A DNA stretch of 54,610 nt, taken from contig JADLDB010000083.1 of NCBI GenBank assembly GCA_020846875.1, positions 1-54,610 of the forward strand. The letters are read 5' to 3'. Below, piece by piece: positions 9,677 through 19,287 of this stretch. Each line of letters begins with the position of its first letter. Positions within the stretch are counted from its first letter, which is position 1. The DNA comes from Myxococcales bacterium. Lineage in GTDB: Bacteria; Myxococcota; Myxococcia; Myxococcales; Myxococcaceae. The position numbers were made by a program, and so were the translations under genes. The notes below the pieces were generated by a model, which did not search any database, was not told where the DNA came from, and saw only the letters and a list, made by a program, of their open reading frames with translations.

Positions 9677-10996
9677 TCACTTCCCGCCGCGGCGGCGGAG
9701 CAGCGCCAGCAGGGCGAGCGAGAGGACCGAGAAGGTGGCGTTGAGCGGCACCGCGCTGCAGCTCATGCCGCCCTTCGTGTCCGGGGTGGCGGTCATCTTG
9801 AGCTCCGACACCGAGTCGCGCTGCTCCGGGTACTGGCGGTCTTCGAAGACGAGGTGCGCCTGCAGTTGGATGGAGTACTCCCCGTCGACGTCGGCGGTGA
9901 AGGTGGGCACGTTGCCGTCCTGGTACGCGTAGGACCAGCGGCGGGACTGGGTCACCACGCCCTTCGGGTCCTTCACCGCGGCGGTGCTGCCGGCCGGGCG
10001 CTGCGTCACCGTCCACACGTACTCCATGGCGGCGCCGTTCCGGTTGGCGAACAGCGGGAGGCGGAACTTCTCACCCGCCGCCAGCACCACGCTGCCGCCG
10101 CCGTGCACGCGGAAGGGGCCGTGCGGGTCCAGGCAGTCCTCCTTGTGCGAGGGGTCGATGACCACGCAGTAGCGCGCGTCGCACCCGTCGCCCAGGCCGT
10201 CGGCGTCCTCGTCCCACTGGCCGCGGTTGCGCGCGCCGGGGCAGTTGTCCGCGTCGTTCAGAATGCCGTCGTCGTCCAGGTCGAGGTCGCACGCGTCGCC
10301 GCGGCCGTCGAGGTCCGTGTCCAGTTGGCTGGAGTTCAAGCTGGTGAGGCAGTTGTCGCGCGCGTCGTTGATGCCGTCGCCGTCCGCGTCGGCGTTGCAG
10401 CGTGGATCGGTGAGGAGGTTCTGCGACGGGTTGGCGATGGCCGGGCAGTTGTCGGAGACGTCCAGCACGCCGTCGCCGTCGTCGTCGTCGTCGCACAGGT
10501 CGCCCACGCCGTCGGCGTTGACGTCACCCTGGTCGACGTTGGGGATGAACTGGCAGTTGTCCAGCGCGTTGGCCAGGCTGTCGCCGTCGATGTCCGCGTC
10601 GCAGGAGTCGCCTTCGCCGTCGCCGTTGACGTCAAGCTGGGAGAAGTTCGAGGTGCTGGCGCAGTTGTCACAGGTGTTGCCCACGCCGTCGCCGTCCGAG
10701 TCCAGTTGATCGCGGTTCGACGAGAAGGGGCAGTTGTCATAGCCGTCGGCCTTGCCGTCGCCGTCGGCGTCGTCGGTGTACGCCAGCGTCTTGCCGTCGT
10801 CGGTGTACGCCACCCAGACGCTGCACCCGCCGCCCACGCACACGCCGGCCACACACGCGCCGCCGCCGCCGCCGCCCTCCTCCCTGGGCTTGCCGCACTG
10901 GCTGCCCAGGCACTCCGGGTTGTCCTGCGCCAGCGCAGGGAAGGCCGACAGCGTCACCAACAGACTGACCAGGGACCAGAGCGTGCGTGCGTGCAT
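9677..10996 (-). CDS. Thrombospondin type 3 repeat surface protein, copy 1
   Basis: A 439-aa exported protein. The signal peptide ends at LSAFPALAQ, followed by a Cys/Gly-rich segment (CLGSQCGKPREEGGGGGGAC) and about eight calcium-binding TSP3 repeats (DxDGDGxxDxxDNC) over residues about 75-285. A beta-sandwich PKD/Ig-like domain covers about 300-410. The tail is a Cys-Ser, a hydrophobic helix and RRRGGK, resembling the MYXO-CTERM anchor. An excellent ribosome site (GGAGGA, 5 nt spacing) selects the ATG giving MHARTLW. A second copy lies at 12413-13702. It is probably a calcium-stabilised, surface-anchored protein; the ligand is unknown. Confidence 0.88.
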   Translation of the reverse strand: MHARTLWSLVSLLVTLSAFPALAQDNPECLGSQCGKPREEGGGGGGACVAGVCVGGGCSVWVAYTDDGKTLAYTDDADGDGKADGYDNCPFSSNRDQLDSDGDGVGNTCDNCASTSNFSQLDVNGDGEGDSCDADIDGDSLANALDNCQFIPNVDQGDVNADGVGDLCDDDDDGDGVLDVSDNCPAIANPSQNLLTDPRCNADADGDGINDARDNCLTSLNSSQLDTDLDGRGDACDLDLDDDGILNDADNCPGARNRGQWDEDADGLGDGCDARYCVVIDPSHKEDCLDPHGPFRVHGGGSVVLAAGEKFRLPLFANRNGAAMEYVWTVTQRPAGSTAAVKDPKGVVTQSRRWSYAYQDGNVPTFTADVDGEYSIQLQAHLVFEDRQYPEQRDSVSELKMTATPDTKGGMSCSAVPLNATFSVLSLALLALLRRRGGK

Positions 10997-11030
10997 GACT
11001 TCCTCCGTGATGTGCGCCATGTGTCGGCAG

Positions 11031-11048
11031 GCGCCCGTCACGGTTCAC
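11031..11048 (-). promoter_or_regulatory. Shared upstream motif of the TSP3 paralogues (copy 1)
   Basis: On the minus strand this reads GTGAACCGTGACGGGCGC, 34 nt upstream of the first TSP3 start codon. The second TSP3 gene has TTGAACCGTGAAGGGAGC at an equivalent place, and both are preceded by TCGCTnAA 10-15 nt earlier. The intergenic sequences are otherwise diverged, so the block may be a promoter or operator kept by selection. The GAACC core resembles an ECF-type -35, but no convincing -10 was seen. Confidence 0.45.
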
Positions 11049-11074
11049 GCCTTGGAATTCAGCGACTTTTTGCG

Positions 11075-12307
11075 TCAGGCGAGGCGGGGAAACACCTCGG
11101 GGCGCACCATGAAGACGGAGTCGGCGAGGCGGCGGCCGCCCTTCTTCAAGGTGCGCTTCAGCGCGAAGTCGAACAGCAGCGGGTCGTGCCGGTCGATTTC
11201 ATTCAAGGCCGCGCGCTCGTCCTCGGTGAGGTAGCCCGCCTCCACCACCGCCCGCGTCTGCATCAGTGCGTTGATGGCGGGCAGCGGGTAGTCGCTGCCG
11301 TTGACGCAGCGGGCCTGCAGCTTCTCGTCGGCCAGCACGGTGTCCAGGGGCGTGCCCAGGCGGTTGACCTGCGGCAGCGCGGACACCTCGCCGAACAGCT
11401 TCCCGTCCCACTGCGGCTCCTCCATCAGCCGGCGGAAGAGCTGGAAGTTGTCCACCCAGGGCCGGGGCTCCTTCGCGTCCAGGTCGGGGTTCGACCCCAG
11501 CGAGGCGCAGTGGGCCACCACCACCGTGACGCCTCTGCCCAGCGGGCGGCGCAGGTGCAGCGGGTTGCCCAGGCGCTGCGCCTCCTCCGCGTGCACGGCC
11601 TTCTCTTCGCCGGCGTGGGTGATGAGCGGCACCTGGAGGCGCACCAGCGCGTCGTAGAAGGCGTCGCAGCGGGGGCTGGACGGGTCGATGTTCATCGCGT
11701 TGGGCAGCCACTTCACCGCCACCGCGCCGGCCTCCACCGCCTTCTCCAGGGCCTCCACCGCGTCGGCCCGGTACGGGTGCACCGAGGCGCAGGCCACGAA
11801 GCAGTCCGGGGCCTTCTTCGCCAGCGCGGCGACGTAGTCGTTGGGGGTGAAGAACTCGGTGGCCTCGTCCAGCGGCCGGCCGGCTTCGTCGTAGGGCCTG
11901 TCGAAGGGGAAGAGGAGGAGCCGCCCGTGCGGCGTCTGGGCGCGCACCAGCGCCTCCAGCCGCTCCACGTACTGCGCGTCGGCGCGGGAGGTGTCGGTGA
12001 TGCCGGCGGCCTCCAGGTAGATGGTGAACTTGAAGTAGTCCGACGGGCTGAGCGGGGACTGCATGCGCTCGCCCACCGTGCAGCCGGTGCCGCCCGCCCC
12101 CAGCCCCACCACGTGCACGTGGGTGTCCAGCACGCGCGAGGCGTCGAGCCCCTGCCAGGCCTTCCGGAGGAGCTCCTTCGCCGCGGCGGACAGGGGCCCG
12201 TCGGGCTTCGGGGGGCGGGCCAGGCGCGCGTGGCCGTAGCGCAAGCCTGAGAAGAGGGCCGCGCCACCAGCGAGGAGGATGAGGTGCCGTCGAGTGACGA
12301 GCGCCAT
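11075..12307 (-). CDS. Exported amidohydrolase-family protein
   Basis: A 410-aa metal-dependent hydrolase-like protein of the amidohydrolase 2 family (TIM barrel). The N-terminus ALVTRRHLILLAGGAALFSG has the twin-Arg plus hydrophobic look of a Tat or membrane-anchor signal. The metal-site motif DTHVHV is at about residue 60; later candidate ligands are ITHAGEE, VVVAHCAS and NGSDYPLP, the last being the usual C-terminal Asp region. The start is the ATG giving MALVTRRH. It lies between two TSP3-repeat paralogues on the same strand, 78 and 105 bp away. The substrate is unknown; related enzymes decarboxylate or hydrolyse small carboxylates. Confidence 0.85.
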   Translation of the reverse strand: MALVTRRHLILLAGGAALFSGLRYGHARLARPPKPDGPLSAAAKELLRKAWQGLDASRVLDTHVHVVGLGAGGTGCTVGERMQSPLSPSDYFKFTIYLEAAGITDTSRADAQYVERLEALVRAQTPHGRLLLFPFDRPYDEAGRPLDEATEFFTPNDYVAALAKKAPDCFVACASVHPYRADAVEALEKAVEAGAVAVKWLPNAMNIDPSSPRCDAFYDALVRLQVPLITHAGEEKAVHAEEAQRLGNPLHLRRPLGRGVTVVVAHCASLGSNPDLDAKEPRPWVDNFQLFRRLMEEPQWDGKLFGEVSALPQVNRLGTPLDTVLADEKLQARCVNGSDYPLPAINALMQTRAVVEAGYLTEDERAALNEIDRHDPLLFDFALKRTLKKGGRRLADSVFMVRPEVFPRLA

Positions 12308-12412
12308 GGAGCTGGAAGCCACTCTACACGGCGGTGGAGCGCAGCCAACGCCCTTGGCGGCCAGGGAAGCAGCGAAGGGCCCGCGCCAGCGGCGCGACGG
12401 GGGCAGGCTTCT

Positions 12413-13702
12413 TCAGCGCCGGCGGCGCAGGAGCGCCAAGAGGGCCAGGCCGGCCACCGAGGTGTCCAGCGGCGCCGCGCTGCAGCTCTGAGCGCCGCCC
12501 GCGTCGGGGGTGGCGGTCATCTTCAGGTCGGACACCGAGTCGCGCTGCTCCGGGTAGGCGCGGTCGGCGAAGGCCAGGTGCCCCTGGAGCTGGACGGTGT
12601 ACTCGCCGTCGACGTCCGCGGTGAAGGTGGGCACGCTGCCGTCCTGGTACGCGTACTGCCAGTGGCGGGACATGGTGACGACGCCCTGCGGGTTCTCCAC
12701 CGACGCCTTCGAGCCCGCGGGCCGCTTCGAGACGGTCCACGCGTACTCGATGGCCGCGCCGTTGCGGTTGGCGAACAGGGGCAGGCGGAACTTCTCACCG
12801 GCCTCGAGCATGACGCTGCCGCCGCCGTGCACGCGGAAGGGGCTGTTGGGGTCCAGGCAGTCGGCCGGGTTGGAGCGGTCGATGACGACGCAGTAGCGCG
12901 CGTCGCACAGGTCGCCCAGCCCGTCGCCGTCGTCGTCCCACTGGGTGCGGTTGCCCACGGCGGCGCAGTTGTCGGCGGTGTTGAGAATGCCGTCGGCGTC
13001 GAGGTCCAGGTCGCAGACGTCGCCCAGCCCGTCGAGGTCCGTGTCGAGCTGGCCGGAGTTGATGGCCGACAGGCAGTTGTCCCGCGCGTCGTTGATGCCG
13101 TCGCCGTCCGCGTCCGCGTTGCACAGCGGATCGGTGAGCGGCTCTTGCGCCGGGTTGGCGATGGCCGGGCAGTTGTCGGCCACGTCCAGCACGCCGTCGC
13201 CGTCGTCGTCGTCGTCGCACAGGTTGCCCACGCCGTCGGTGTTGACGTCGCCCTGGTCGACGTTGGGAATCGTCTGGCAGTTGTCCTGGGCGTTGAGCAG
13301 CCCGTCGCCGTCGATGTCGCCGTCGCAGGCGTCGCCTTCGCCGTCGCCGTTGACGTCGAGCTGCGAGAAGTTGGAGGTGGCCGCGCAGTTGTCGCAGAGG
13401 TTGCCCACGCCGTCGCCGTCCGAGTCCAGTTGGTCGCGGTTGGAGACGAAGGCGCAGTTGTCGGAACCGTCGGCCTTGCCGTCGCCGTCCGCGTCGTCGG
13501 TGTACGCCAGCGTCTTGCCGTCGTCGGTGTACGCCACCCACACGCTGCACCCGCAGCCGCACCCGCACCCGCACCCGCCGCCCTCCTCCTTGGGCTTGCC
13601 GCACTGGCTGCCGAGGCACTCGGGGTTGTCTTGGCTCTGGGCCAGCGCCGGCACACTGGCCAGACAGCCGAGGGCAAGACACAGCGCGGTGGTTGCTTTC
13701 AT
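12413..13702 (-). CDS. Thrombospondin type 3 repeat surface protein, copy 2
   Basis: A 429-aa paralogue of the protein at 9677-10996 with the same order of parts: signal peptide (cleavage near VPALAQ), Cys/Gly segment (here CGCGCGCGC), eight TSP3 repeats, beta-sandwich domain, then a Cys-Ser, hydrophobic helix and RRRR. The two are highly similar throughout, differing mainly in the Cys/Gly segment and the start of the tail. The start is the ATG giving MKATTALC, preceded by GCAGGAGG. It is divergent from amtB. It is probably exported, calcium-binding and surface-anchored. Confidence 0.88.
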   Translation of the reverse strand: MKATTALCLALGCLASVPALAQSQDNPECLGSQCGKPKEEGGGCGCGCGCGCSVWVAYTDDGKTLAYTDDADGDGKADGSDNCAFVSNRDQLDSDGDGVGNLCDNCAATSNFSQLDVNGDGEGDACDGDIDGDGLLNAQDNCQTIPNVDQGDVNTDGVGNLCDDDDDGDGVLDVADNCPAIANPAQEPLTDPLCNADADGDGINDARDNCLSAINSGQLDTDLDGLGDVCDLDLDADGILNTADNCAAVGNRTQWDDDGDGLGDLCDARYCVVIDRSNPADCLDPNSPFRVHGGGSVMLEAGEKFRLPLFANRNGAAIEYAWTVSKRPAGSKASVENPQGVVTMSRHWQYAYQDGSVPTFTADVDGEYTVQLQGHLAFADRAYPEQRDSVSDLKMTATPDAGGAQSCSAAPLDTSVAGLALLALLRRRR

Positions 13703-13745
13703 GTTCGAGGCCTCCTGCGGGTTCGAGGTGCCAGAGTCGCCGCAC

Positions 13746-13763
13746 GCTCCCTTCACGGTTCAA
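13746..13763 (-). promoter_or_regulatory. Shared upstream motif of the TSP3 paralogues (copy 2)
   Basis: The minus strand reads TTGAACCGTGAAGGGAGC, 43 nt upstream of the second TSP3 start and matching 15 of 18 bases of the block at 11031-11048. Beside it, towards amtB, is a cluster of short inverted elements (GTGCG at 13777-13781, CGCAC at 13790-13794, GTGCG at 13797-13801) that could be an operator in this divergent region. Confidence 0.45.
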
Positions 13764-13911
13764 CTTGAGCGATTTCGTGCGGTTGAAAACGCACACGTGC
13801 GGACGCGGCCTGACATGTCGGCTCTCTGTGCAAGACTAGAGCTCAAGTTCTTTGAATTATGCTTCTTCTCGTTGACGCAAGCCTTCGCCGTCTGACAAGA
13901 AGGATTGTTGC

Positions 13912-17178: not shown

Positions 17179-19287
17179 ATGACGCCCCCCATGACGTCCG
17201 AGGGCGGCGCGCGGGACCTGCCCAGAGTCCTCTTCGTCCTGGGCAAGGGCGGCGTGGGCCGCAGCACCGTCGCCACTTCCCTGGGGCTGCACTTCGCCTC
17301 GAAGGGCGAGCGCGTGCTCCTCGTGGAGTGGACCGTCACCGAGACCATCGCCCCCTGGTTCGGCCAGCCCGCGGTGGCGCCCGGCTTCACCCCCGTGGAG
17401 GTTGCGCCCCGCCTGTGCGTGCTGAACTACGAGCTCCACGCGGTGCTGCGCTCGTACTTCGTCGAGCACCTCGGCCTCGACCTCTTCTACCGGCGCGTCA
17501 TCGAGGGCGCCGCCGTCCAGCGCCTCATCGAGGCGGCCCCCGGCCTCGCCGAGCTGCTCTTCATCGGCCAGCTCTGGTGGCTCACCACCCTGGCGGAGAA
17601 CGAGGCCGGCCTGCGCTTCGACCGCCTCATCGTCGACGCGCCCGCCACCGGCCACGCCGTGTCGTTGCTCGACCTGCCCGCGGCCATGCAGACCTTCGGC
17701 GCCTCCGGCCTCCTCGCGCTCGAGGTCGGCCGCATCGCCCAGATGATGAAGGACCCGAAGTGGACCGGCGCGGTGGCGGTGGCGCTGCCCGAGGCCCTCG
17801 TCGCGGAGGAGACCGGCGAGCTCGTCCCGCGCGTCACCAAGGACCTCGGCCGGCCGCCGCTCGCAGTCTTCGTCAACCGCAGCGTGCGCGGTCTGGTGGC
17901 GCCGGACTCCCGTCCCCCGTGGCTGGACGCGCTGCCGCTCACGCCAGAGTCCCGCGACAGCCTCTCGGTGCTGCAGGGCGAGCTCGCCGGCCGGGTGCGC
18001 AACGAAGACGAGCTGCGCCGGACCCTCTCACCCGCCACGCGCGACGGGGTGGTGTCGCTCCCGGAGCAACTGGCCGCCCTGGGCGCCGCGGCGCCGCTGG
18101 AAGTCGTGCGCGCGCTGGTGCCCGTCGTCGGCGCGTACGTCGAAGGCCGCCCCCTCCCCGCGCCCGCTGGCCGGGAGGTGGCCCCGGAGAGGGCCGTCAC
18201 CGAAACCCAGAGACTCCCCCTCGCCTCGCGCCCACCCACGCCCGAGCGGCGTGACGGAGTCCGCCTGCACGTGATGCTGGGCGCGGGGGGCGTGGGGAAG
18301 ACCACGCTGGCCGCCGGCTACGCCCTCGCGCTCGCCCGCGCTGGCCGCCGCGTGGGGCTGTTGGGCATCGACCCGGCGCGTCGCCTCCAGGGCGCGTTGG
18401 GCCTCACCCTGCCGGACCTCGAGGTGCCGGTGCCGGGCGTGGAGGGCCTGTCCGCCGCCCTCCTGCGCGCCGAGGACTGCCTGCGCCGCTGGGCCGCCGA
18501 GGCCTGCCCTGACGACGCCACCCGCGAGCGCCTCCTCGACAACAGCTTCTTCCGCGCCCTGGCCGACCGCTTCGCCGGCGCCACCGACTTCCTCGCCGCG
18601 GTGCGCGTCGCCGAGTGGCTGGAGCGCGACCCGTCCCTCACCGACCTCGTCGTGGACACCGCGCCGGGCTTCAACGCCATCGAGTTCCTCCGCCGGCCCG
18701 AGCACGTGTCCGCCTTCCTCGAGGGCAACCTCGTCACCTGGCTGCGGTGGACGACGAAGGAAGGCGGCGCCTTCGGGGGCCTTTTGCGCGCGGGCGCCCG
18801 GCGGGTGCTGGGCGCCATCTCCCGCATCGGCGGCACCCGGCTGCTCCTCGACATGGCCGAGTTCGTCACCCTGGTGGAGGGCGTCTTCACCCGCATGTCC
18901 CAGCGCCTCGCCGCGGCCCAGAAGCTGCTGGGGAGCCCCGACACCTCGCTGCTGGTGGTGACGGCGGTTCGCCACGACGCGGCGCTGACGGTGCAGCAGT
19001 TGGTGGACGCGCTCGCCGGGCTGCGCCTCTCACCTTCGGGCGTCATCATCAACCGCGCCGTCGCGCCTGCGCTGGCCGGTGAGCTGTCCCGCCTGCCCCG
19101 CGCGCAGTGGCCGGCCGCCGCCGTCCCCACGCTCACCTACGCGCGGGCCTTCGCCGAGCTGCAGTCGCGCCTGGCCCGCGACGTGTCCGCGCCCGGGCGA
19201 AACGTGCTGGTGGTGCCGGCGGCCTCCGGGCTGGACGAGACGGCGCGGCTCTCCTCCCTGGAGGCGCTGGGCCGCTACCTCCTCTGA
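17179..19287 (+). CDS. Fused double ArsA-like ATPase
   Basis: A 702-aa cytoplasmic protein made of two ArsA/GET3-like P-loop domains. The N-half (about 15-340) has GKGGVGRST at 22-30, with the catalytic P-loop Lys replaced by R28, no DP-A motif, but an intact DAPATGH switch. The C-half (about 360-700) has GAGGVGKTT at 368-376, with the ArsA-type signature Lys absent (A369), but keeps the P-loop Lys (K374), IDPARRLQGAL and DTAPGFNA. ArsA-like pairs as two adjacent genes are known in actinobacteria and myxobacteria; here they are one chain. No ars genes adjoin it. The start is the ATG giving MTPPMTSEGG. The family energises transport or membrane targeting; this member's partner is unknown. Confidence 0.9.
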   Translation: MTPPMTSEGGARDLPRVLFVLGKGGVGRSTVATSLGLHFASKGERVLLVEWTVTETIAPWFGQPAVAPGFTPVEVAPRLCVLNYELHAVLRSYFVEHLGLDLFYRRVIEGAAVQRLIEAAPGLAELLFIGQLWWLTTLAENEAGLRFDRLIVDAPATGHAVSLLDLPAAMQTFGASGLLALEVGRIAQMMKDPKWTGAVAVALPEALVAEETGELVPRVTKDLGRPPLAVFVNRSVRGLVAPDSRPPWLDALPLTPESRDSLSVLQGELAGRVRNEDELRRTLSPATRDGVVSLPEQLAALGAAAPLEVVRALVPVVGAYVEGRPLPAPAGREVAPERAVTETQRLPLASRPPTPERRDGVRLHVMLGAGGVGKTTLAAGYALALARAGRRVGLLGIDPARRLQGALGLTLPDLEVPVPGVEGLSAALLRAEDCLRRWAAEACPDDATRERLLDNSFFRALADRFAGATDFLAAVRVAEWLERDPSLTDLVVDTAPGFNAIEFLRRPEHVSAFLEGNLVTWLRWTTKEGGAFGGLLRAGARRVLGAISRIGGTRLLLDMAEFVTLVEGVFTRMSQRLAAAQKLLGSPDTSLLVVTAVRHDAALTVQQLVDALAGLRLSPSGVIINRAVAPALAGELSRLPRAQWPAAAVPTLTYARAFAELQSRLARDVSAPGRNVLVVPAASGLDETARLSSLEALGRYLL

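Follow-up and report, generated by a model that had tools for sequence, protein, structure and literature searches.

The open reading frame (ORF) at 17179-19287 on the plus strand of the window is, judged by its sequence, a fused and divergent BagA-BagB and not an arsenic pump. The window is the whole 54,610-nucleotide stretch that we analyzed, from contig JADLDB010000083.1 of a Myxococcales bacterium (assembly GCA_020846875.1). With a probability of about 0.72, we read the product as a single-chain BagA-BagB-type ATPase that has one full ATP site in its C half, completed by Lys23 of its N half. The observation of a preliminary description, that the two halves deviate at their P-loops in complementary ways, is real, and the new part of it is a lineage-specific, Arg-bearing branch of the known BagA-BagB-type ATPases, which has been fused once. 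Most work on Get3/ArsA-type ATPases has dealt with dimers whose two sites are alike, where it is hard to tell the role of each site. A heterodimer that naturally comes as one chain and pairs a complete site with a degenerate one would make each site separately mutable in one polypeptide, and its 14 relatives with split genes, like those of the Lys type, would serve as natural controls.

Motifs of the fused protein

The frame runs without internal stops, and each half gives a significant match to the ArsA/Get3 fold (Pfam ArsA_ATPase, 2.2e-27). On the motifs, the preliminary description is accurate for both halves (Table 1): the N half keeps the signature Lys, carries Arg for the P-loop Lys and lacks DPA, and the C half keeps the P-loop Lys and DPA and lacks the signature Lys. 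The Asn of the N-half NRS motif stands at what we take to be the adenine-recognition position.

Table 1 Coordinates of the fused ORF and its features in the window.
Feature	Position	Strand	Basis
Fused BagA-BagB-like ATPase ORF, 702 aa	17179..19287	+	Pfam/NCBIfam, PDB sequence matches, AlphaFold2 model
N half, BagA-like domain, residues 11-335	17209..18183	+	6bs3_A (Rv3679): sequence 5e-18; structure Z 26.7 over 296 residues
N-half P-loop GKGGVGRST, residues 22-30; signature Lys23 kept, Arg28 at the Walker-A Lys position	17242..17268	+	Arg invariant in 15 clade members
N-half switch-I position, EWTVTE (residues 50-55) in place of DPA	17326..17343	+	Trp51 invariant in five aligned clade members
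N-half switch II DAPATGHA, residues 153-160, kept	17635..17658	+	Motif/alignment
Asn233 of the N-half NRS motif	17875..17877	+	Invariant in aligned clade members (column N226)
Inter-half linker, residues 325-358, Pro/Ala/Arg rich	18151..18252	+	AlphaFold2 confidence low at 340-354
C half, BagB-like domain, residues 356-702	18244..19284	+	6bs3_B (Rv3680): 1.7e-28; NCBIfam BagB 154.7 bits
C-half P-loop GAGGVGKTT, residues 368-376; Walker-A Lys374 kept, Ala369 at the signature Lys position	18280..18306	+	Sequence motifs
C-half switch I IDPARRL, residues 397-403; Asp398 at the catalytic Asp position	18367..18387	+	Asp role from PMC10248533
C-half switch II DTAPGFNA, residues 493-500	18655..18678	+	Sequence motifs
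C-half amphipathic insert, residues 501-589, partly of lower confidence	18679..18945	+	AlphaFold2 model; Get3 client-binding insert position; putative role

Asymmetry of A and B subunits in two-gene pairs

ORFs from the fetched loci were sorted into A and B subunits by their similarity to the two halves outside the P-loop and switch I; the motifs were read only after this sorting, and the window's own copies were left out of the counts. These loci were found within one bacterial order and within Spirochaetota by their similarity to the window protein, so they do not form a bacterial census. Among them, 60 of the 62 distinct A cores had the signature Lys without Asp-Pro, and all B cores (57/57) lacked the signature Lys and kept both Asp-Pro and the Walker-A Lys. 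The two exceptions among the A cores are a true ArsA (L106) and the A subunit of locus L012 in genome G055, where Asp-Pro is apparently out of register. By these motif counts, the complementarity of signature Lys and DPA is the rule in two-gene BagA-BagB pairs and no peculiarity of the fused protein, so it would not depend on a single chain. The M. tuberculosis pair has the same distribution in the printed alignments, with the signature Lys in A only (GKGGTGKST) and DPA in B only (GAGGVGKTT, IDPAKRL), which suggests that its asymmetry is a rule of the family.

Ordinary myxobacterial BagA-BagB pairs likewise consist of adjacent A and B genes with this asymmetry, and they are about 27-34% identical to the window protein. 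They differ from it in having separate genes, the Walker-A Lys in A, and a switch I of the EVNA/EVVA type instead of EWT. Two such split pairs, both with the Walker-A Lys in A, occur in the same genome as the fused gene (C86:136885-138761 and C101:65461-67471).

The Walker-A Lys has been lost on the A side only, at least two times, and never on the B side. One loss defines the 15-member clade described below; the other is in G055 L012 (contig C63), whose A subunit lies outside the clade, carries GKGGVGRTA and stands beside a normal B subunit that groups with an ordinary B subunit. These two cases suggest that A subunits have exchanged the Walker-A Lys for Arg on more than one occasion.

A clade with Arg at the Walker-A position

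A profile built from the N halves of the window protein and of genome G052 was run on the A subunits of 145 genomes of the window's order. It gave 619 bits for G052, 616 for the window and 400 for G099, and every other A subunit in these genomes scored 154 or less. The separation was thus clean, also with 195 genomes of the phylum covered, and an alignment query of a named genome collection returned three loci. Together, 15 A subunits, all with GKGGVGR, form a clade in which Arg is fixed at the Walker-A Lys position; they come from 3 of the 145 genomes of the window's order and from 12 Spirochaetota genomes. The latter comprise two Leptospiraceae metagenome-assembled genomes (MAGs) of the named collection and ten genomes from a sample of 296; within the spirochaete order, 12 of 30 genomes have the Arg-type pair. 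We found no relatives in viral contigs, and the plasmid search returned only distant ArsA and ArsA-related matches.

The pairs of G052, G099 and the twelve Spirochaetota genomes share with the window protein the Arg, the switch-I Trp and a BagB-like partner, and in five aligned pairs the N-half identity to the window protein is 41-57%. They differ in being encoded by two genes, adjacent or overlapping, with fusion in 0/14. Columns invariant in the aligned clade members include the P-loop GKGGVGR, switch II and NRS; the spirochaete members have Gln at the acidic switch-I residue (QWS/QWA), and the B subunits of the clade have Ala or Gly at the signature Lys position. In the tree, the Arg-bearing A clade has support of 100/99 on a long stem, the clade of the partner B subunits has 100/100, and the deep grouping of the two matches; long branches were flagged by the program, and rooting and placement relative to the ordinary pairs are uncertain. 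The recurrence of the same Arg with the same asymmetry in 14 other genomes marks the observation as more than chance. What sets the lineage apart is Arg28, which all 15 clade members share; the fusion is special to this genome alone.

Predicted packing of the two halves

The preliminary description had proposed modelling the halves as an ArsA dimer. The AlphaFold2 input was a 53-row alignment in which some rows were A-stop-B read-throughs that held the register. The model has a pLDDT of 86.7 and a pTM of 0.88; its confidence is low at residues 1-8 and 340-354 only, and somewhat reduced around residues 510-560. VIA-align superimposed residues 11-700 on the closed MgATP-arsenite form of ArsA at Z 26.6 and rmsd 3.6, aligning 520 residues that span both halves, which makes closed MgATP ArsA the best whole-length structural match; the open ArsA forms gave Z ~21.5 and rmsd ~4.7. 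The whole-length Foldseek matches are ArsA proteins as well. The halves are thus predicted to pack as an ArsA-type pseudodimer like closed, ATP-bound ArsA, although the closed predicted form is no evidence of a conformational cycle.

Proposed mechanism and alternatives

In Get3, an intradimeric Lys crosses to the ATP of the partner and the switch-I Asp positions the water (PMC10248533). Read in the same way, the only fully equipped ATP site of the window protein would be that of the C half, with Lys374 and Asp398 in cis and Lys23 reaching across the interface from the N half. The N-half site would have no trans Lys (Ala369 stands there) and no catalytic Asp, and its Walker-A Lys is replaced by Arg28. 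The glycine-rich loop, switch II and the NRS Asn are all retained in it, and nucleotide binding at this site is plausible because the P-loop glycines, switch II and NRS are invariant; the site probably holds a nucleotide in a structural or regulatory role and would not turn it over. The pair would open and close as the C site binds and hydrolyzes ATP, loading and releasing a client on the C-half helical insert. A Get3-like client groove, if any, would be expected mostly on the C half, because the spacing from switch II to the next strand is ~90 residues there versus ~35 in the N half. The sequence, the family assignment, the asymmetry, its conservation and the predicted packing come directly from the analysis, and the hydrolyzing site, the N-site nucleotide, client binding and the cellular role are what we infer from these comparisons.

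The earlier idea that each half supplies what the other lacks is right for one competent C site that would use Lys23, and fails for a second composite site, since no signature Lys is available from the C half. The reading that fits best is an obligate heterodimer with a composite site, which the predicted packing favours. Of the obligate intramolecular heterodimer that had been proposed, the heterodimer agrees with the predicted packing and the complementarity, and the intramolecular state is not required, as split pairs share the asymmetry; the obligation would stem from the family and not from the fusion. A wider interpretation is possible but tentative: the Arg-bearing proteins may form an asymmetric, single-engine Get3-fold clade in two phyla, in which one subunit has become a nucleotide-sensing, non-hydrolyzing lid through the fixed Walker-A Lys-to-Arg change, donating only its trans-acting Lys, and in which one lineage was locked into a single chain.

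Arg for Lys alone does not prove a dead site, by analogy with NosGet3d, in which Arg takes the position of the Walker-A Lys and Glu that of the catalytic Asp, and which nevertheless hydrolyzes ATP (PMC10248533). The missing donor Lys is a stronger argument against N-site hydrolysis than Arg28. The same protein also speaks for an alternative that we regard as unlikely, in which both sites turn over ATP, Arg28 replaces the Lys in phosphate binding, and a slow N site uses Glu50 or another residue to place the water. NosGet3d (All4481; 3igf, 8egk) resembles the N half as a Get3-fold protein with Arg in this position and matches it in structure (Z ~21.6), and the invariant P-loop, switch II and NRS Asn of the aligned clade members also fit two-site turnover. 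However, NosGet3d is one Get3d protein that carries its own signature Lys, which the protomers of its homodimer can exchange, whereas the C half here has none for the N site, and the acidic residue that would place the water is Gln in the spirochaete members.

With three catalytic features missing from the N site, the N half could also be a decaying pseudo-domain that serves as a scaffold only and binds no nucleotide. We think this rather less likely still, because GKGGVGR, switch II and NRS are invariant among members that are only 41-57% identical, and decay would not preserve them. The single-site ATPase completed by Lys23 remains our preferred reading.

Origin and reality of the fusion

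Fused and split versions coexist, as the preliminary description had asked, with the split form as the rule and the fused one in the window only. Among the loci examined, a single uninterrupted A+B frame occurs only here, and the other 14 clade members have separate genes. In eight other loci (L098, L099, L100, L102, L010, L064, L011 and L051), A and B share a frame and one stop codon is all that separates them. On this evidence the step from split to fusion is a short one, as loss of the single stop codon would fuse A and B.

The gene comes from a draft genome of 200 contigs, the fused form is present in one genome only, and GC3 falls to 0.85 in the linker versus 0.96-0.97 in the flanking coding sequence, all of which would fit a sequencing or assembly error behind Arg28 or the fusion. 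We consider such an artefact improbable. Arg is carried by 14 other genomes, and all six Arg codons (CGC, CGG, CGT, CGA, AGG and AGA) are used across the 15 clade members. As to the fusion, the region between 18181 and 18267, where homologues start, has no in-frame ATG, GTG or TTG that could serve as a separate C-half start. The fusion is probably real, though resting on a single draft contig, because the other two frames near the join are closed by stops, a separate C-half start is absent and a low-confidence linker joins the halves.

Relation to BagA-BagB, ArsA and Get3

Among solved structures, the N half is closest by sequence to Rv3679 (BagA) and the C half to Rv3680 (BagB) of M. tuberculosis, with the values given in Table 1. 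These two proteins were crystallized together as a complex (PDB 6bs3-6bs5), a Get3-like heterodimer with the same fold; they differ from the window protein in being two chains with the Walker-A Lys present in A, and identity in the structural alignments is only 24-28%. The NCBIfam scores, 118.3 bits for BagA (cut-off 400) and 154.7 bits for BagB (cut-off 521), stay below the equivalog cut-offs, so we filed the 702-aa ORF as a BagA-BagB homologue and not as an equivalog of the M. tuberculosis proteins; the ordinary split pairs of the same genome also score below these cut-offs. The fused protein has the signature Lys in A only and Asp-Pro in B only, a mark of BagA-BagB pairs that we derived from the pairs found here and not from a published definition, and it is a single ORF where such pairs are two separate polypeptides. 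The NCBIfam variant AAA_KGGVGR (NF047398) gave 29.6 bits over the P-loop region only, against a curated cut-off of 90.

The label ArsA-like holds for the ArsA/Get3 fold and the predicted ArsA packing, and does not hold for the closest relatives, which by sequence are BagA and BagB. ArsA (1f48, 9nbo) is likewise a double-domain chain with pseudodimer packing, which the model predicts here; it differs in having GKGGVGK in both halves, metal-binding Cys and an ars operon. That the protein is a true arsenical pump ATPase driving arsenite efflux is very improbable despite its double-domain layout and whole-length structural match to ArsA, given an ArsA equivalog score of 92.7 against a cut-off of 650, BagA and BagB as the closest solved relatives by sequence, Cys at 80, 434 and 443 only with a non-Cys residue aligned to ArsA Cys113, and no arsB, arsD or acr3 recognized among the scanned neighbouring genes.

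Get3/TRC40 was rejected as an identity: the CXXC zinc motif is absent, and the protein has two different halves and is no homodimer of one gene product. The cluster 6 double-domain ArsA homologues (Myxococcus xanthus, 655 aa; PMC2963123) are likewise fused, double ArsA-like and myxobacterial, and are probably of another lineage than the window protein.

The genome also holds a second double ArsA-like ORF of 667 aa (C17:8992-10995, plus strand; L044). Its first half has GKGGAGKST without DPA and its second half GSGGVGKSS with TDPSHSL, which is the same split of signature Lys and Asp-Pro in another fused protein. This ORF possibly represents the lineage of the 655-aa Myxococcus xanthus protein.

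Genomic neighbourhood

As first described, an M23 peptidase (5.3e-20, upstream) and an alpha/beta-hydrolase esterase (1e-55, downstream) adjoin the gene, and no ars genes were seen among the neighbouring genes scanned. The search for conserved neighbours, also proposed there, came out negative: in the loci compared, we found no neighbour conserved between the two phyla, and the M23 peptidase and esterase were not found beside the pairs of G052, G099, L046 and L047. The bagAB genes of M. tuberculosis and M. smegmatis have been linked to tolerance of glycerol, nitric oxide and citrate and to survival of streptomycin (PMC10597346, PMC12216072).

In nine Spirochaetota loci (L107-L113, L115 and L116), a magnesium-chelatase-like (ChlI-like) AAA+ gene of ~490 aa, with GEKGQAKS and no Pfam match, lies directly upstream of the Arg-type pair. 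At the same threshold, 22 of 30 genomes of the spirochaete order had it, including ones that lack the pair, compared with 0 of 145 in the window's order. We rejected it as an explanation of the window's gene, as it is not tied to the pair and was not detected in those 145 genomes.

Seven Spirochaetota loci have a YqgE/AlgH gene no more than a few kb from the Arg-type pair. In G052 (L038, 119-6889), the Arg-type pair lies ~55 bp upstream of hypF, followed on the same strand by hypD and an AIR-synthase-like gene that by position would be hypE, and it is divergent from a glutamyl-tRNA reductase gene. Elsewhere in the window, 9680-11020 and 12416-13543 on the minus strand encode two paralogous, secreted-looking proteins with repeated DxDxDG repeats of calcium-binding type; the second, at least, also has a hydrophobic-Arg tail at its C terminus. 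The long plus-strand ORFs antisense to them, 9854-12250 and 12284-13768, look like spurious mirror frames.
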